DNA of 21,895 nucleotides from positions 1-21,895 of the IMG/VR virus record IMGVR_UViG_3300006865_000207. One strand, 5' to 3'. How positions within the stretch are numbered: the first letter of the stretch is position 1; each line of letters starts with the position of its first letter. Positions 2,798 to 21,158 of this stretch are shown in pieces. Source of the stretch: a virus. The notes beneath the pieces were generated by a model, which saw only the letters and a program-made list of their open reading frames with translations, did no database searches and was not told the DNA's origin. The translations under genes were made by a program, and so were the position numbers.

Positions 2798-3018
2798 GCG
2801 TCGCGTTTTTCACCTACGATCTGATAGGGGGCCCGCTGGACGGCGGCACCATTCTACATATCAGACAGCTCCCTCTGCTGGTTTTCGTCGGGCCAGCCGA
2901 AGAAGGCGATACGTTCGCACCGTACGGTCCGATGCGATCTGTGCGCACCCCTTGGGCGTATCGTTTCGACGGCATCGCCTACGCACATTCACCGCACGAG
3001 TCGCTACGTCGCAAGTGA
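2794..3018 (+). CDS. Small hypothetical protein with GGPLDGG motif, 74 aa
   Basis: ATG at 2794 overlaps the upstream stop in ATGA. The 74-residue product begins with FTYDLIGGPLDGG and ends with a YRFDGIAYAH segment. A strand followed by GGPLDG or GGPMDG near the N-terminus is a recurrent pattern in short phage and environmental bacterial proteins, as I recall it, with no known function. The 3' end overlaps the 3' end of the leftward 450-residue gene by 15 bases, so this is the last gene of the terminase block. Confidence 0.65.
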   Translation: MSVAFFTYDLIGGPLDGGTILHIRQLPLLVFVGPAEEGDTFAPYGPMRSVRTPWAYRFDGIAYAHSPHESLRRK

Positions 3019-4356
3019 GTCGGCCCGCGTTTCGGCACCGGCGTTGTTCGACGGCATTTGCACGCCGAAGGCCCGTCGAAAGAACCGCTGAAAGACACCC
3101 TCCGAGTTTGCCACGGTGAACGACCAGCGGTCGCCGCGCAGTGCTTTGGCGAACTCGGCCCCGCGCCGCCAAGCCAGGCCGATCCCGCCGAAGTAGGAAA
3201 CCTCCCCGAAAACAATGTCGTCAACCCGCACGGTTTTGCCGCTCGTTGGGTTCGTCGCCCAGATAAGATGCAGGTTGAGCGTGGGGCGAATGTACTCGGG
3301 GATCAGCACAAATCCGTAGGCGTGAGTCCACGCCGTTGCGGCGGAAAGGACCGCCGGCGCCAGGGTCACCGCCGAACCAATCGTGCCGGAACCGTCCTGA
3401 ACGTATATGGAGAGATCGCCGGCTAGGATACCAGCCTCGCCTAAGTACCAGAACGATAGGCAGTAGAGGCGATTGCGCTTGGCCTGGGTGATGGGCAGCG
3501 ACTGAATAAGCGAGATCGACGCCGGTGCACCGGAGGCCAGTAACTTGAGCGACTGCGCGCCATGAAACGCATTTCCGTCCAGGAAGATGTGCGTGCCCGC
3601 CGTGCCCGTATTGATTTGCCAACTGCTCGGGATATTCGCCGCCCCGCTCTCGAAGTCGCCATTGGAGACGAGCGACGTCGAGTGCAGGCCCTGCAGCGTG
3701 CCCTGATCGCCGAAGCCCTCGGGGTCCACGCCGTGCGCCTCGGTTTCCTTTGAGCCCTTCACGGTGAAGGTCTCCGATCCCTCGGGGCGCCCGTCCCGCT
3801 CGCTGTCCGCGACGCACTCGACCGAGACGGTGTCGCTGGGCACGGCCAACTCGCTATTCACACCAGCGTAGTCGGGCTGGGCGCCGATCTGAATGCCCGA
3901 CACGCGCCCCGGCGACATATAGCCGTCGAGTACCTTGGTCGTCATGAGCACGGCGTCGCTGGCGTGATTTCCAGCCGCCGCCGACACGGCGCCGATCGTG
4001 ACGACCGAGGCATTGATCGACTCCGAGGCCGCCACCATCGCGAGCCGAAGCCGATAGAGAAGCTCGTCGATCGAGCCGCCCGGCCAGCCCAACTCGTCCA
4101 GGATCGTCGTCTTATCCTGCAGCCGGGTGCTCGCGATGCCCGCCAAAGCGGCCCGCCTCCCGACGTGCTGCGCCTTCCACGAGGCAAAGGACGAAATCAG
4201 CGTCCCCTGCGGCCCCAGAATCGGCAGGGCATCCTGATAAACCGCGAGGATTTCGGCCAAATCGGTGTCGAGATCGGTGCCGTCGGTCTTTTGCAGGTCG
4301 TAGTGTTTGACGAGCTTTCCCAGGTCCTCGAACAGCTCGGCGTAGTTCAGGGCCAT
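3004..4356 (-). CDS. Virion-associated or moron-like protein with carbohydrate-binding-like domain, leftward
   Basis: This 450-residue protein lies on the strand opposite its neighbours. Residues 1-125 are mostly helical. Residues 126-210 are beta-rich. Residues 229-385 begin with SNGDFESG, include SSWQINT and GAQSLKLLAS, and end VRVDDIVFG: the signature of a jelly-roll carbohydrate-binding-like or galactose-binding-like domain. Residues 386-450 are a basic tail. No signal peptide is seen. The start at 4356 has GGGAG about 11 bases upstream, separated by an A8 tract. I recall similar N-terminal regions (MALNYAELFEDLGKLVKHY type) in uncharacterised planctomycete proteins. It may be a virion surface protein transcribed separately, or a moron gene expressed from a prophage. 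The function is not proven. Confidence 0.75.
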   Translation of the reverse strand: MALNYAELFEDLGKLVKHYDLQKTDGTDLDTDLAEILAVYQDALPILGPQGTLISSFASWKAQHVGRRAALAGIASTRLQDKTTILDELGWPGGSIDELLYRLRLAMVAASESINASVVTIGAVSAAAGNHASDAVLMTTKVLDGYMSPGRVSGIQIGAQPDYAGVNSELAVPSDTVSVECVADSERDGRPEGSETFTVKGSKETEAHGVDPEGFGDQGTLQGLHSTSLVSNGDFESGAANIPSSWQINTGTAGTHIFLDGNAFHGAQSLKLLASGAPASISLIQSLPITQAKRNRLYCLSFWYLGEAGILAGDLSIYVQDGSGTIGSAVTLAPAVLSAATAWTHAYGFVLIPEYIRPTLNLHLIWATNPTSGKTVRVDDIVFGEVSYFGGIGLAWRRGAEFAKALRGDRWSFTVANSEGVFQRFFRRAFGVQMPSNNAGAETRADSLAT

Positions 4357-12780: not shown

Positions 12781-13353
12781 ATGCCCAGCCCCCTAGTCGT
12801 TGCCATGACGGGCAACTACAGCCTCGAGTGGGCACCGCCGGCGATCGCCGCCGGCTACACCACCCCCGAGACCGAGGCTGGATATGGCGCCTATTTGAAC
12901 GTGGGCCAGACGGCCGTCGCGAAGGTTTTCAAGCGCTCGTTCGCCGTGCAGCCGGTCGTTTCGGACCTCTACGGCCAGAACGCCATGCTCGACGGGATTC
13001 AGCAAGGCGTCGTGCTGACGCTGGCGATGGACCTAGCCGAGTACACAGCGAACGTCCGGCATTTGCTCTGGCCGTGGGGCATGACGGTCGGCGGGGTCGC
13101 CGACTTCGGAATTTTCCCTCAGGCCGGGACCCGCATGTCGCAGTATTGGGGGCTTATTCGCCTCACGGCCGCGACCGGTTCGCCGGCGGCCGCGCCCAAC
13201 GGGCCGGCGACGTTCATCGCCAAGGCGGCGGTCGTGGCCCCAGACTCGCCGCACGAAATGATGATGGGCACGGTCTGGCGCCGCAGCCCGATCACCATGA
13301 ACCTTTTCCCGTACTTTGACGGTACGAACTACCGCAACTTCGCCGTTACCTAG
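12781..13353 (+). CDS. Putative tail tube protein
   Basis: This 190-residue protein has GAGG 8 bases before ATG 12781. Features are an N-terminal strand region (NYSLEWAPPAIAAGY), a middle segment with alternating strands (GVVLTLAMDLAEY), and a C-terminal segment (EMMMGTVWRRSPITMNLFPY) of the type that closes tail-tube proteins, with a terminal strand NYRNFAVT. Tail-tube proteins stack as hexamers round the DNA channel. The position directly before a tape-measure-like gene supports the call. No sheath gene is visible, so a non-contractile tail is likely. Alternative: another minor tail or neck protein. Confidence 0.55.
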   Translation: MPSPLVVAMTGNYSLEWAPPAIAAGYTTPETEAGYGAYLNVGQTAVAKVFKRSFAVQPVVSDLYGQNAMLDGIQQGVVLTLAMDLAEYTANVRHLLWPWGMTVGGVADFGIFPQAGTRMSQYWGLIRLTAATGSPAAAPNGPATFIAKAAVVAPDSPHEMMMGTVWRRSPITMNLFPYFDGTNYRNFAVT

Positions 13354-14235: not shown

Positions 14236-15987
14236 ATGCCTCAAACCCCGCTGCCATCGCTCACCTTTAGCGGCGTGCTGTCCGCCGGCCTGCCGACCAT
14301 CGGGAGGATCGTTTACAACGGCTACGAATTTCCCTCGGCCCAGCGGCATCGTCTTCGCTGCACGCCTCTGTTCTCCGACAGCGGAATGTCCCACAAGTGC
14401 AACGTCTGGACACTGTCCGTAGCGTTTTTTCTGACCTACGACGACGAAGATGGCCTGGCGACACGCCTGCAGGATTTCAGCGGCGCGGGCAATGCGGGCC
14501 TGCGCGATAAGCTCACCGCCCCCGGCCGGCAATTGATCATCGAGGACTGCGGCTACGGCGATATCAACATTTCGCCCAACACCGACGGCACCCGCGACGT
14601 GCTCTGGGGACCGAAGATCGTCGATTTTCAGATCAATCGGATTGGCAATCAGGCCGCTGAGGTCATTTGGACCTGCCAGTTTGCGATCGCCGACTGTTTG
14701 AACGTGACCGACGGCACGGCGATCTCGAAGCTCGAGCAAAATCTGCTGGCGGCCGAGGCCAACGTTGAATTCGTGATCGACGACGACGGCCTCACATCGC
14801 GCGTCATCAGCGGCTACATCGAGGTGCCGCAAATGCGGAGCGACACGAACCGCCCGGTGCGCGACGTCGAGGCCATCTTCAGTACGATTGTGTGGGAAAC
14901 CCCGGTCGGCTTTCGCCGCTCACCCTCGGACCGCCGCGTCTCGGCCAATCGCGCCCGGATCGACTATCGGATCGTGGACACCGAAATGCCGGGGGATGAC
15001 GCGCCGCCCGACGGCACGACGCAGGCCGAGGTGACGATGTCGCTGGAAAACCGCCAGCCGAGCAATTTTCACCTCTGGCAGTGGACGATTGAAGGCCGCA
15101 TCAAAAGCCGCCGCGGGTTCGATCGCAGCCACCCGTACAACGCGGCATTTCAGATTCTGGCCGGCTACGTCAGCCGCATGCGCGCCCACGTGCTGTCCGT
15201 CGGTCAATCTCTGATCCCAGAGTTTGTGCGGCTGCGACGGATGCTGCACGGGCGCGAGATCAACTTTCAGTTCTCGTTTCAGGTCGCCATGCCGATCGAG
15301 CAGATCATCACGGCCAGCGGCATGTTCGAGCCTGTTCCTGGCGCCGACTGGAACACCTGGAAGGCGTCTCTGCAGCAGATATGGCAGCCTCGCGGATTCG
15401 CGCAGCTTCGCGTCGAGCCGCTGCAGGAGGCGATCGTAAACATTTGCGAGGGTGGCGCCCCATCGGTGCTCTCCACCGATAACCGTCCATCGTCGAGCCC
15501 CTCGCCGGTCCCGATCTTCGACTGCCAGGGTATCACGCAGCAAAACTCGTGGATCGACTACGACAACCGCCTCTACGGGCAGTGCTATTCGCCCGGCACC
15601 GAGCACGCCGGCAGCGAGGAGCAAACGCTCGACATCAACGACAGCACACAGGCCGACTTTCAGGGCGCTGGCGCGACGCTGCTGGGCAAGTTCGACAACG
15701 CGCAGACTGTCGATTATCAGTTTCACGGCCCGCCCCTGATGCGGGTCCTGATGGTTGGACGGGCGAAGCGCGTCCAGTTCAAGCCGACGGTCCCGGCGAT
15801 TTCGACGATTGACGGCCAGCCGGTGGTGGAGATCGACCGCCGCGTCGAGAATCGGAAGGCCGGGGCCTACGCGGGTTGCACTGTGTGGGCCACCGAGTGG
15901 AGAATCCTGTACCAGGTGATTCAAAATCCGGCGGCCGAGGTCGCCGCCGACGCCGACTTCCCCAATCCATTCACCGGAGGCCCCTGA
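14236..15987 (+). CDS. Large tail/baseplate-associated protein
   Basis: This 583-residue protein starts 4 bases after the tape-measure stop and ends in a TGATG overlap with the next gene. It is beta-rich with many Trp, Cys and aromatic residues. It contains two partly similar halves, each with a strand-helix segment (FQINRIGNQAAEVIWTCQFA and REINFQFSFQVAMPIEQ). The C-terminal part (about 460-583) looks like a separate beta domain. Its place just after a tape-measure protein is the usual one for a distal tail or baseplate component, but I recognise no family and no enzyme motif. The cysteines (CGYGD, TCQF, DCLN, ICEGG, DCQG) may be structural. Confidence 0.6.
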   Translation: MPQTPLPSLTFSGVLSAGLPTIGRIVYNGYEFPSAQRHRLRCTPLFSDSGMSHKCNVWTLSVAFFLTYDDEDGLATRLQDFSGAGNAGLRDKLTAPGRQLIIEDCGYGDINISPNTDGTRDVLWGPKIVDFQINRIGNQAAEVIWTCQFAIADCLNVTDGTAISKLEQNLLAAEANVEFVIDDDGLTSRVISGYIEVPQMRSDTNRPVRDVEAIFSTIVWETPVGFRRSPSDRRVSANRARIDYRIVDTEMPGDDAPPDGTTQAEVTMSLENRQPSNFHLWQWTIEGRIKSRRGFDRSHPYNAAFQILAGYVSRMRAHVLSVGQSLIPEFVRLRRMLHGREINFQFSFQVAMPIEQIITASGMFEPVPGADWNTWKASLQQIWQPRGFAQLRVEPLQEAIVNICEGGAPSVLSTDNRPSSSPSPVPIFDCQGITQQNSWIDYDNRLYGQCYSPGTEHAGSEEQTLDINDSTQADFQGAGATLLGKFDNAQTVDYQFHGPPLMRVLMVGRAKRVQFKPTVPAISTIDGQPVVEIDRRVENRKAGAYAGCTVWATEWRILYQVIQNPAAEVAADADFPNPFTGGP

Positions 15988-16433
15988 TGCCCGACGACAC
16001 GCTGGCGATCGATGTGAAGCTGAATCCCGAGACCGGGCGGGCCGCGATCGCCCTGGGGAGCCTCGAGCCGATCGACATCGACGTCTATGAGGCGGCCGAC
16101 GCGATGGCGGACATCGAGCGACAAATCGCCGGCACGCCGGCCGAGCAGAACCTCGTGGCCCGCTCGCGGCTCGTGGCCGAGTACGTCGCCGAGACGTACC
16201 AGACGCGGCTAACGCCCTATCAGGCCGACGCCTTCTTCCAGCTGGCGGTGCTGCTGGTCGAGGCCCTCAAAAAAAAACAAGCCGCCTCGATCGCCTCCGT
16301 TGTCTCGTCGCTTGGGCTTACGGCGGCCTCGACACCCGCGACTGGGGCCGGCACGACCTCGAACGCTACGCCGCCGGAATCAGCGCCTGCCGAGACTACG
16401 AGCGACTCCACGGCCCCGACGTTTACAGCATGA
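15987..16433 (+). CDS. Tail-chaperone-like protein, zero-frame product (G-like)
   Basis: This 148-residue frame starts at ATG 15987 (TGATG overlap; GGAGG 6 bases upstream, the strongest site in the region). Residues 1-97 are well ordered (PETGRAAIALGSLEPIDIDV, then helices to VLLVEALKKK). Residues 98-148 are low-complexity Ala/Ser/Thr/Pro. KKK at 95-97 is encoded by the nine-A run. Ribosomes that slip -1 there leave this tail and read 92 different residues. Such a pair is the arrangement of phage tail-assembly chaperones (lambda gpG and gpGT), which bind the tape measure. Position near the tail genes agrees, although it lies after, not before, the tape-measure gene. Confidence 0.65.
   Translation: MPDDTLAIDVKLNPETGRAAIALGSLEPIDIDVYEAADAMADIERQIAGTPAEQNLVARSRLVAEYVAETYQTRLTPYQADAFFQLAVLLVEALKKKQAASIASVVSSLGLTAASTPATGAGTTSNATPPESAPAETTSDSTAPTFTA
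16269..16277 (+). promoter_or_regulatory. Programmed -1 frameshift site 1 (A9 run)
   Basis: Nine adenines are read CTC AAA AAA AAA CAA in the zero frame. A AAA AAA (16271-16277) fits the X XXY YYZ slippery pattern. GAGG at 16260-16263 is a Shine-Dalgarno-like element 7 bases upstream, as in dnaX-type bacterial sites. GCCGCC (16281-16286) can pair with GGCGGC (16322-16327) as a downstream stem. Most lysine codons elsewhere in the window are AAG, so AAA AAA AAA stands out. Confidence 0.75.
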
Positions 16434-16555
16434 CGAGCGACGACGTTTACAAACTGGCGATGCGGGTCTTTGACAACCCGCGCAAGGCCGAGGACTATCA
16501 GCGCGCGGTGGCCTGGGCCAAGCTCGAAGCACAGCTGGCGGCCGAGGCCGAGTAA
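16277..16555 (+). CDS. -1 frame extension of the chaperone-like gene (T-like part)
   Basis: In the -1 frame there is no stop from the A run to TAA at 16553-16555. The 92 residues are clearly protein-like: LRCLVAWAYGGLDTRDWGRH, then ERYAAGISACRDYERLHGPD, MTSDDVYKLAMRVFDNPRKA, ending AKLEAQLAAEAE. Joined to residues 1-97 of the zero-frame product this gives a 189-residue fusion. An ATG at 16430 overlaps the zero-frame stop (ATGA) and could start a 41-residue product alone, but residues upstream of it also look coding, which favours slippage. The next gene (portal) starts at 16556, directly after the stop. Confidence 0.7.
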   Translation, partial: TSRLDRLRCLVAWAYGGLDTRDWGRHDLERYAAGISACRDYERLHGPDVYSMTSDDVYKLAMRVFDNPRKAEDYQRAVAWAKLEAQLAAEAE

Positions 16556-18013
16556 ATGGCAAGCACCAAAAAGACCCGCCGGCACGACGTTCGCGAGCTC
16601 GTTCAGGACGAGGTCGCCTATGCTGCGCCGCAGGTCTATCTGCTTCAGTATTTCGCCGACCGCGTGCCGCCATTCACGCTCTACACGGCCGAACTGATGG
16701 AGCTCGACGAAACGGTCTGGTTTGCGTCCTGCGTGGCCGATGGCCCGCTTTACGCGGCCGAGATTCTGGTCAAGGCCCGGAGCCCCGAGGTCCGCGAGTT
16801 CGTCCACGCGACGTGGAAGAAGTTCTGGTCTGGATGGTCCTGGTACGTCATGCGCAGCAAGCAGTTCGGCTATCAGGCCTTCCAGGTGCTCTATCGCTAC
16901 GACCACGACAAGCAGCGCTGGGAGCTCGATCGCCTCAAGGACCTGCATCCCCGCGACGTTCGCGTGCTCACCGTAAAACGCAAAAAGGTCGGCGTGCGTA
17001 TCAAGGCCGGGGCTAGCTATCTGCCGCAGGTCAACACGCAGGGCCAGCACGACCTGTGGGGCGCCGGAGGCCTGTGGTGCGTTCACCAGTTCGAGTTCGG
17101 CGGCTGGTACGGCCGGGCGCTGTTCGAAAAGGCCCACAACGCATGGTGGGAAAAGCGCGGTCGCGGCGGCGGGATCGACGTCCGCCGGCTGCGCATGATG
17201 AAAGACGCCTGGCGGGGCGACTTTATGCGCTACCCCGAGGGCACCCGCAAGGACGAGGAAGGCAAGACGATCACGAATCGGGCCTTCGCCCTCAAGATGA
17301 TCGAAATGCTACAGTCCGGCGGCGTCGTTGCCCTGCCGACGGCCCGCGATCAGAAAACCGGAGAATATCTCTGGGATTACACACCACCGTCCGGCGGCAC
17401 GGCCGGGGCAAGCCAGGTCATCGAGTGGGTCGATAAGCTCGACGACGGCGTGCTGCGGGCCATGAACGTGCCCAAGGAGGTTATCGAGGCAGCCACCAGC
17501 GGCAGCGGCTTCTCGGGCCGCTCAATCCCGATGATTTCGTTCTTGACGATGGGCGATCGCCGGCTCAAGGAGCACGTTCGCGACTGGCGCCGCGACATCA
17601 TGGACCCGCTCGTCGACGTGAACTACGCGGGCGAAACCTACGATGTTGAGCTCGTCCCCCTAGTCGAGATCGTGGGCGAGCAGGTCGGCAACATGGGGCA
17701 GCCGAACTTATCGAGCCAGGCGAACCCTGCGCGGCCGCCCGGCCCCCCCGCCGGTCAACTGTTCCCCGGCGCCGGGCGGCCCGCATCGATGCCGCCGCAA
17801 AACGGGCGGACCTCGGCGGATCGCATTGGAATCCCGCGCCAGTTCGCCGGCGACGATGCCGAGCAGCCGGCCGCCGATCAGCTCGTTGAGGCCGCCGCCT
17901 CGGCCGCGCGTGCGATCAGCGATGAGGTCAGTCGTCGCGTGCAGGCAGCGCTAAAAAAAAACGGGACCCGGTCGAGTTTCTGGCCGAGGTCACCCGCAGC
18001 CTCGAGGACCTGA
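16556..18013 (+). CDS. Portal protein (Mu gp29-like/DUF935 type), zero-frame product
   Basis: The portal forms the ring through which DNA enters and leaves the head and is the docking site for terminase and the neck. This 485-residue protein has an N-terminal segment SKQFGYQAFQVLYRYDHDKQ and the segment HPRDVRVL, with VHQFEFGGWYGRALFEKAHN and KLDDGVLRAMNVPKEVIEAA further on, all in the order seen in Mu gp29-like portals. From about 395 the C-terminus is Pro/Gly-rich, then helical (ADQLVEAAASAARAISDEV). The last 16 residues after the A run look unordered and end at 18013. A -1 slip at the run instead continues into MuF. GAGG lies 8 bases upstream of ATG 16556. Confidence 0.82.
   Translation: MASTKKTRRHDVRELVQDEVAYAAPQVYLLQYFADRVPPFTLYTAELMELDETVWFASCVADGPLYAAEILVKARSPEVREFVHATWKKFWSGWSWYVMRSKQFGYQAFQVLYRYDHDKQRWELDRLKDLHPRDVRVLTVKRKKVGVRIKAGASYLPQVNTQGQHDLWGAGGLWCVHQFEFGGWYGRALFEKAHNAWWEKRGRGGGIDVRRLRMMKDAWRGDFMRYPEGTRKDEEGKTITNRAFALKMIEMLQSGGVVALPTARDQKTGEYLWDYTPPSGGTAGASQVIEWVDKLDDGVLRAMNVPKEVIEAATSGSGFSGRSIPMISFLTMGDRRLKEHVRDWRRDIMDPLVDVNYAGETYDVELVPLVEIVGEQVGNMGQPNLSSQANPARPPGPPAGQLFPGAGRPASMPPQNGRTSADRIGIPRQFAGDDAEQPAADQLVEAAASAARAISDEVSRRVQAALKKNGTRSSFWPRSPAASRT
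17953..17961 (+). promoter_or_regulatory. Programmed -1 frameshift site 2 (A9 run)
   Basis: Nine adenines are read CTA AAA AAA AAC GGG in the portal frame. A AAA AAC (17956-17962) is a classical -1 slippery heptamer, and A AAA AAA is available one codon earlier. AGG at 17943-17945 is a weak Shine-Dalgarno-like element 10 bases upstream. Downstream, GGTC and GAG near 17970 can pair with CTC and GACC near 18001-18010. After a -1 slip, translation continues CGG GAC CCG GTC GAG. The -1 frame is closed by a TGA at 17923, just 27 bases upstream of the run. Confidence 0.75.
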
Positions 18014-18864
18014 GCCCAACGATCGCCGAGACGATCTACGGTGCCTCGATCGCCGGCTGGGCGGCCGGGGCGGGGCAGGTTCTGGGCGAAACGGCGGTCG
18101 AAACGCTGGACGAGCGGCGAGGGACCCCGCCTGAGGCCCCAGGATCGCCGCAGGGGCCGCCGGATCGCGTGGGCGGCATTCTGTTCGAGACGCCCGGCGA
18201 GGGCGTGGTACGCCTTCCTGTGATCGATACCGCGATCCGCCGGATGCAGACCTCCGAAGTCCTGATTTCCGACGACTACTATGCGATCGCCGCCGCTGCC
18301 CGCGGCAATGCTTTTACGGTGACGGGCGATATCACCACCAGTACGATCGAGCGGCTGCGGGACCTCGTGTACGAGGATCTGGCCCAGGGCACCAGCCGCG
18401 AGGCCTTCATGGAGGCGGTCGAGGCCGCGATCCCGGGCCTGCCGATCTCCGAGGCCCACCTCGAGCAGGTCTACCGGAACGCCGTCAACGCCTCGTTCAC
18501 CGAGGGCCAGGAGACGATTCTGCGGCACCCACTCGTCGAGGACGAGTTTCCCTATCGCGTCTACGCGGCGATCCGCGACGACCGAGTGCGCGACGAGCAT
18601 CGCGAGCTCGAAACGCTCGGCCTGGACGGCACGGCCGTCTACCACAAGGACGATCCGACGTGGCGGCGGTTTCGGCCCCCCTGGTCGTGGAACTGCCGAT
18701 GCGGCTGGTACGCCATCACCGTCGAGCAGGCGGCGGCCCTTGGCGTCCGCGAGGCCCGCGTCTGGCTTGAGACCGGGGTCGAGCCACGCCACGAACCAGT
18801 GATGCCGCCGAACTTCGCTCCCGACCCGCGCTGGGATCGGTCGCCCTTCGGAGTGCTTCCCTGA
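17962..18864 (+). CDS. MuF-like head morphogenesis region, -1 frame, fused to portal
   Basis: The 300 residues read after a -1 slip end at TGA 18862-18864, giving a 769-residue portal-MuF fusion. Without slippage the only start is GTG 18169 (231 residues), with no convincing ribosome binding site; residues before it (RDPVEFLAEVTRSLEDLSPT, then AETIYGASIAGWAAGAGQVL) are clearly coding. The MuF signature is at the end: YRVYAAIRDDRVRDEHREL (R679-D680-E681-H682 in the fusion), then FRPPWSWNCRCGW (C714, C716). MuF proteins are minor head proteins, made in few copies and often injected or needed for head assembly. A low-level portal-linked copy would fit that need. Confidence 0.78.
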   Translation, partial: RDPVEFLAEVTRSLEDLSPTIAETIYGASIAGWAAGAGQVLGETAVETLDERRGTPPEAPGSPQGPPDRVGGILFETPGEGVVRLPVIDTAIRRMQTSEVLISDDYYAIAAAARGNAFTVTGDITTSTIERLRDLVYEDLAQGTSREAFMEAVEAAIPGLPISEAHLEQVYRNAVNASFTEGQETILRHPLVEDEFPYRVYAAIRDDRVRDEHRELETLGLDGTAVYHKDDPTWRRFRPPWSWNCRCGWYAITVEQAAALGVREARVWLETGVEPRHEPVMPPNFAPDPRWDRSPFGVLP

Positions 18865-20357: not shown

Positions 20358-21158
20358 ATGGTCGTCAATCGCCGGCGGGTTTGTCTGACCTGTGGAGGCA
20401 AGCGCAGACGCCGGGCGTGGGGCCGATACTTCGCGTGGTATCCATGCCCCGATTGCTGCGAAGAACCAGGCGGCGGCGGCAGCGGCGGGAGCGGTCCAAG
20501 CAGCGGCTCGAGTGGCAGCAGCGGCTCGAGCGGATCATCGCTCATCCTCACGCAACCATGCACGAACGCCTGTCTGGGTGGCCTCATTCCGGCGCGATTG
20601 CTGTTGGAGGTAAGCGGCGTGGTCTTGGGCAGCGCGTCTCCGGGCTGCGACGACGTGAGTTATTTCAACGGCTCGTTCGTGTTTGATTACTGCGGATTTA
20701 ACTCATTCAGGCGCGAGTGCTGCTATTACGCGCCGATCACGTGCAACGGGTGCTGCCTGCCATCCACAATCCCCCCCTACTGCCCATCCGCATCTGTGTG
20801 GCACAACACGCACTCGCACTCTTGGAACATCTGCCTCCGCTCATGGAACCCGCCCGGCCCTGTGATTGAGGCCACGCAGATTGACATCAGAAGCGGCCTC
20901 GGCCGAGGTAATACTGGCGTCTGCCGCACAGACGCTGATTACATCGCTGCCTGCCCGGGTGATTGCGCTGTTGGCGGGGCGGTCCAGAGTTGCGCGACGC
21001 CCGGATTTGTAGTGGCAATTCGGCTGCCCGACAAGATCGACTGTACGACACTCAACGCGTCATTCGATGCGTCGTCGCTGGGTGATAACCGGATCATCGA
21101 AGACGGCACTCCGTACATTGATATTTCCGCGCTGACCCTCACAGTAAGTGCTCTCTGA
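20358..21158 (+). CDS. Cys-rich protein with zinc-ribbon-like N-terminus and GS linker
   Basis: This 266-residue protein contains 21 cysteines. Residues 1-36 carry C9-x2-C12 and C30-x2-C33-C34 in a very basic context (GGKRRRRAWGRYF), like a zinc ribbon. Residues 38-61 are a Gly/Ser linker encoded in part by two copies of an 18-base repeat unit. Residues 62-266 are beta-rich with paired cysteines (ECCYY, TCNGCC, ACPGDC), suggesting a folded, metal- or disulfide-stabilised head. It starts 3 bases after the upstream stop and ends in a TGATG overlap. The arrangement (anchor, flexible linker, Cys-rich head) suggests a virion tip or host-contact protein. Family not recognised. Confidence 0.65.
   Translation: MVVNRRRVCLTCGGKRRRRAWGRYFAWYPCPDCCEEPGGGGSGGSGPSSGSSGSSGSSGSSLILTQPCTNACLGGLIPARLLLEVSGVVLGSASPGCDDVSYFNGSFVFDYCGFNSFRRECCYYAPITCNGCCLPSTIPPYCPSASVWHNTHSHSWNICLRSWNPPGPVIEATQIDIRSGLGRGNTGVCRTDADYIAACPGDCAVGGAVQSCATPGFVVAIRLPDKIDCTTLNASFDASSLGDNRIIEDGTPYIDISALTLTVSAL
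20500..20531 (+). repeat. Direct repeat in the Gly/Ser linker of the Cys-rich gene
   Basis: The 14-base unit AGCAGCGGCTCGAG occurs at 20500-20513 and again at 20518-20531, with an 18-base period, and codes for part of the Gly/Ser linker. A perfect period of six codons suggests recent duplication, so linker length may vary between related phages. Confidence 0.7.

Follow-up and report, generated by a model that had tools for sequence, protein, structure and literature searches.

A nine-adenine run as a candidate −1 slippage site joining the portal and MuF reading frames of an uncultured phage

The window analysed here is the whole stretch of DNA, 21.9 kb in length with a GC content of 65.3%. 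Between positions 12781 and 18864 it carries, in order, a tail tube-like gene, a tape measure-like gene, a gene for a 583 aa protein of no assigned family, a tail-chaperone-like gene, the portal gene and the MuF gene. The portal lies far from the terminase and is placed after the tail genes, and the order of genes around it is common to several relatives. The features are as follows.

15987–16433, + strand: tail-chaperone-like gene, short form (tA plus 0-frame tail), homologous in relatives
16269–16277, + strand: A9 run, putative slippage site 1 (CTC AAA AAA AAA CAA), a conserved −1 junction in relatives
16280–16555, + strand: tB, the −1 frame extension of the tail-chaperone-like gene, marked by a phase switch and kept in relatives
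16556–18013, + strand: portal reading frame, 485 aa, comprising a Mu-like portal core, then a Pro/Gly-rich linker, then an MuF N-terminal segment
17831–17952, + strand: first ~30 residues of the MuF N-terminal domain, in the portal frame, assigned from the gain in MuF HMM score and from alignment
17923–17925, + strand: TGA shutting the −1 frame upstream of the second A9 run
17926–18864, + strand: −1 frame ORF, the remainder of MuF with the Phage_Mu_F domain (PF04233 and phrog_220 matches)
17953–17961, + strand: A9 run, proposed −1 slippage site 2, marked by a switch of coding phase and improbable by chance
18010–18013, + strand: CTGA, in which a MuF-frame CTG overlaps the portal stop (a weak reinitiation start in a rival explanation)
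18169–18171, + strand: GTG, the earliest standard start codon in the MuF frame (an internal start in the same rival explanation)

The portal frame scores 19.9 bits against PF06074 (Portal_Mu), under the cut-off of 23.9, and 219 bits against a portal HMM made from nine relatives with the window left out. Judged by these scores, it is portal-like of its own phage group rather than a member of PF06074. Its codons over site 2 read GCG CTA AAA AAA AAC GGG ACC, and the frame stops 16 codons past the run, as a preliminary description of this DNA had noted. That description also assigned a clear MuF domain to the −1 frame, which is open from 17926 to 18861 with a stop at 18862–18864. Indeed, this frame matches Phage_Mu_F (PF04233) with 37.3 bits, above the curated cut-off of 29.6, and phrog_220 (minor head protein) with 94.9 bits (6.9e-27). 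Equally borne out are the closure of the −1 frame by the TGA at 17923 and the position of its first standard start, with no ATG, GTG or TTG upstream of the GTG at 18169.

GC content by codon position reveals that the coding phase changes at the A9 run. Portal and MuF in this record are not one continuous frame, and the change of frame coincides with the run. The A_AAA_AAC heptamer singled out earlier as slippery (17956–17962) does lie in phase, but it is not the sole heptamer of the form X_XXY_YYZ at site 2, as A_AAA_AAA (17953–17959) is also in phase. A search for a stimulatory RNA structure downstream of site 2 found folding no better than that of shuffles (z −0.75 and +0.57); such structures are not required at every bacterial −1 frameshift site.

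The run had been placed at the border between portal and MuF, a view that does not survive profile comparison, which puts it ~30 codons within MuF. With a MuF profile built without the window sequence, the part after the run alone gives 276.5 bits with a match from profile position 45. When the 41 preceding portal-frame residues are added, the score rises to 288.0 bits and the match begins at position 4. An equal gain was obtained for none of 1000 shuffles of the segment and for none of 84 other slices of the portal. Because the gain beats both shuffles and slices, the portal frame can be taken to encode ~30 MuF residues, so that the run divides the N-terminal domain of MuF.

The MuF of the window is intact over the entire profile, and its homology remains colinear on the two sides of the run. 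When joined, the protein matches the portal family phrog_2662, which includes MuF, across the junction with an E value of 5.7e-7, compared with 0.001 for the MuF part alone. The residues adjoining the junction in the predicted fusion are RDPVEFLAEVTR. A structure predicted for the joined MuF, of low confidence (mean pLDDT 64.9, pTM 0.39), has two helices that come together at the turn specified by the A9 run. An early alignment had put the run within a Mu-type portal C-terminal domain; this candidate scored 9 bits with an hhalign probability of 1.6% and was rejected in favour of the shuffle-supported MuF N-terminus.

Close relatives were absent from single-sequence scans with portal, MuF, TerL and MCP, and a phage DNA collection searched with the portal and the gene that follows MuF gave no match. 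Relatives were found by alignment-based scans of portal and MuF. All 38 loci carrying both genes, which include some overlapping pieces of one contig, provide MuF with its own standard start codon near or past the portal stop, leaving the window as the only one of 39 loci whose MuF lacks a start codon. MuF in this group begins ~35 residues ahead of the run position, and no relative starts as late as the GTG at 18169. Because relatives often place MuF in the −1 frame relative to portal through ATGA or GTGA overlaps, this relation is probably ancestral and ordinary, and the notion that it is itself special can be discarded. What is peculiar to the window, as judged from these loci, is the apparent loss of both stop and start, with the A9 run in their place. 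No A9 junction is present at site 2 in the 38 relatives, all of which encode MuF separately, and viral contigs yielded no second copy of the window junction at any run length.

Some loci carry unusually long versions of either protein. Portal ORFs with C-terminal extensions of ~500 to >1,000 residues are found at L017:2-3241, L170:4773-8945, L175:4791-9908, L193:2591-7066 and L208:4884-8522, and the extension in L017 contains a P-loop (AGGGGSGKGTATKNH) similar to that of a zeta-toxin-type kinase. The MuF ORFs of L009, L015, L020 and L021 span 1266–1768 residues, with the MuF domain set within long extensions like those of polymorphic MuF toxins. In other phages, MuF proteins frequently bear toxins.

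Runs of six or more A nucleotides occur only twice on the + strand of the window; both are exactly A9 and both lie at −1 frame switches. Window dinucleotides predict 0.009 runs of at least nine A nucleotides, compared with the two observed. By window codon usage, the probability of CTA AAA AAA AAC given Leu-Lys-Lys-Asn is 0.0014, and AAA AAA appears at none of the 10 other Lys-Lys pairs of the window. C7 runs within window genes are accompanied by no frame change, and no other broken gene was seen in the window. In 459 kb of related loci, there is no A10, and the A9 runs on the + strand are mostly −1 junctions between tA and tB.

The first of the two window runs, site 1, resides 1.7 kb upstream of site 2 in the tail-chaperone-like gene. 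Here the 0 frame continues to 16433, and the coding signal is carried by the −1 frame up to a TAA that immediately precedes the portal ATG. Profiles of tA and tB built from the window, L016 and L018 also identify this gene in other IMG/VR phages, where it is likewise upstream of the portal. In relatives, the offset between tA and tB is −1 exactly at the A run, and this run is A9 in four further lineages (L018, the L016/L171–L173 cluster, L174 and L191). The junction reads CAA AAA AAA ACG in L018 and L174, CTA AAA AAA AAT in L016/L171–L173, and CTA AAA AAA AAC in L191, where all 12 bases (CTAAAAAAAAAC) match those at site 2. Shorter runs are found in L175/L176 (A8, CTA AAA AAA AGT) and L170 (A6, CTA AAA AAC, or A_AAA_AAC). 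A 0-frame stop shortly after the run is common to site 2 and the site 1 junctions. The search for the same A run in related phages, suggested in the preliminary description, is negative at the portal/MuF site and positive at site 1, which is a conserved −1 junction.

Two further A9 runs were noted among the relatives: one (L177:1015-1023) is an exception that lies within one unbroken ORF with a tA-like domain, and at another (L184:4248-4256) the −1 frame opens within the run and stays open for 84 codons.

In L177, L181, L193, L203, L183 and L208, tA and tB share one frame. Most in-frame loci have a separate tA-only gene ~3.5 kb upstream, although none was seen for L193. In L208, a short tA-type paralogue immediately precedes a gene weakly identified as the tape measure, with the fused long form further on. 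Tail assembly chaperones are made as short and long forms by frameshifting in some phages and from two genes in others (PMC10885494). Because the short and long pattern, whether by frameshift or by two genes, fits tail assembly chaperones, site 1 is very probably a G/GT-like recoding site. A family profile that names the site 1 gene was sought and gave no match. The G/GT place in tail assembly chaperone systems is between the major tail protein and the tape measure; the window gene comes after a weakly identified tape measure.

We favour, with moderate confidence and on the basis of one sequence, the reading that the A9 run at 17953–17961 is a −1 slippage site yielding a minority portal–MuF fusion. 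The majority product would be a portal that ends 16 codons past the run and bears a short MuF-derived helix, and a fraction would slip back one base into the −1 frame to give a fusion of ~768 residues. Slippage could involve a ribosome on A_AAA_AAA or A_AAA_AAC, or RNA polymerase adding one A. That several lineages share an A9 run at site 1 hints at the polymerase, and the A8 and A6 runs of other lineages hint at the ribosome. Because MuF lacks its own start codon, slippage would be its only source, and its copy number would be fixed relative to the 12-subunit portal ring.

Slippage is the best-supported reading because the second A9 run is a conserved −1 junction in relatives and because the window MuF is alone among 39 loci in lacking a start. 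On these two points the fusion by −1 slippage that had been suggested earlier gains support, but it is weakened by the absence of site 2 from all 38 relatives and by the location of the run inside MuF. Also counting against it is the fact that the run interrupts a domain that all relatives keep unbroken, as an indel would. The sequence itself shows the gene anatomy, the frame switch, MuF homology on both sides of the run, the missing start and a second A9 run at a conserved −1 junction; slippage as such, its efficiency, the machine that slips and the use of the fusion in the virion are inferred. A broader model, for which we see the case as evenly balanced, holds that programmed slippage would set the number of subunits, out of 12 in the portal, that carry an MuF arm, with A9 runs serving throughout the group as signals for −1 recoding in two or more neighbouring morphogenesis genes.

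The same interruption would be seen if the locus were a plain in-frame portal–MuF fusion gene whose run is really A10, or some other in-frame length, and was miscounted in assembly. Homopolymers are where such errors occur, MuF homology continues colinearly through the run, site 2 is shared by none of the relatives, and in-frame fusions of 740–853 aa are present in L024/L092, L067 and Porphyromonas phage013a. A miscount is nevertheless unlikely, given that so long a run of A is hardly to be expected here in the absence of selection, that site 1 has equal length and is a real conserved −1 junction with A9 in independent contigs, that the C7 runs leave window genes unbroken and that A10 is absent from the 459 kb of relatives. 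Alternatively, a genuine A9 run might reflect a recent mutation of a fused gene, null or phase-variable, rather than a programmed site. Its absence from relatives and its splitting of a conserved domain fit such a mutation, which could be survivable, as the MuF homologue gp7 of SPP1 is dispensable (PMC6316719). We consider this quite improbable, however, as no other broken gene is seen in the window, MuF is intact over the full profile and the run length equals that of the conserved site 1.

No frameshift would be needed if MuF were made separately from an internal start, either the GTG at 18169 or the CTG at 18010 that overlaps the portal stop. The GTG would give a protein of 231 aa, near the 246–265 aa of Mu-like MuFs, and the CTGA overlap resembles the ATGA overlaps of relatives. 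However, both GC phase and homology indicate that the −1 frame is coding from the A run on, well upstream of 18010 and 18169, and initiation at either position would leave conserved −1 frame sequence untranslated. Moreover, CTG is weak, the only AGGGG upstream of the GTG is distant, and group MuFs begin ~35 residues before the run with none starting so late, which makes a separate internal start very unlikely.

Recoding in tailed phages is mainly a feature of tail chaperones, tail tubes and some capsid proteins. G/GT-type −1 frameshifting of the tail assembly chaperone was reportedly described for phage lambda by Xu, Hendrix and Duda in 2004, and SPP1 17.5/17.5* is a further case. Site 2 resembles these systems in its proposed −1 shift, in having a brief slippery stretch towards the end of a morphogenesis gene and in the expected pairing of a major short product with a minor long one; site 1 is very probably the same kind of junction. 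Unlike G/GT, which joins two chaperone domains, site 2 would join a portal to MuF, and the extension is a 300-residue head protein.

Fused portal–MuF proteins encoded by single ORFs are known from Microbacterium phages EA3/EA5/EA8/EB (PMC7302621) and are also found in Porphyromonas phage013a, in a Pelotomaculum prophage (L024/L092:2318-4570) and in an IMG/VR phage (L067:2414-4633). These proteins, like those of phrog_2662, contain both domains in similar order and size, but in a continuous frame, whereas the window changes frame at the A9 run and would yield both portal and fusion.

Bacterial RNA polymerase slips efficiently on nine A or T nucleotides, and Thermus thermophilus dnaX undergoes transcriptional slippage on A9/T9 (PMC5009743). 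Site 2 likewise has exactly nine A nucleotides and so reaches the length threshold for transcriptional slippage, whereas related site 1 junctions also have A8 and A6, favouring ribosomal shifting there. In a halovirus, A_AAA_AAC is known to serve as a g-t shift site (PMC5009743). Phage A2, as cited in PMC10885494, has a −1 frameshift in its major head protein; by that citation it resembles the window in having a head structural protein with a minority −1 extended form, but the protein is the major capsid protein and not the portal. No report of a frameshift-made portal–MuF protein was found in the literature searched. The parts, recoding in phage morphogenesis genes and fused portal–MuF proteins, are known, and their combination would be new.

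If true, a recoded portal would offer a simple means of mounting MuF proteins on the portal ring in a small, fixed number. Having a pair of A9 sites within one genome provides an internal positive control, by which efficiency and mechanism (ribosome versus RNA polymerase) are directly comparable. One portal/MuF relative recovered by the alignment-based scans, L089, sits in a Pirellulaceae assembly, which suggests that the host of this uncultured phage is a planctomycete. Annotation of planctomycete phages would lose MuF and the long tail chaperone wherever such sites stay unjoined.

Elsewhere in the window, a gene of 450 residues on the − strand (3004–4356) lies between the terminase and head genes. 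Positions 20358–21158 encode a Cys-rich protein of 266 residues with a Ser/Gly repeat linker (GSSGSSGSSGSSGSS), and the gene that follows resembles a heptosyltransferase-type glycosyltransferase.
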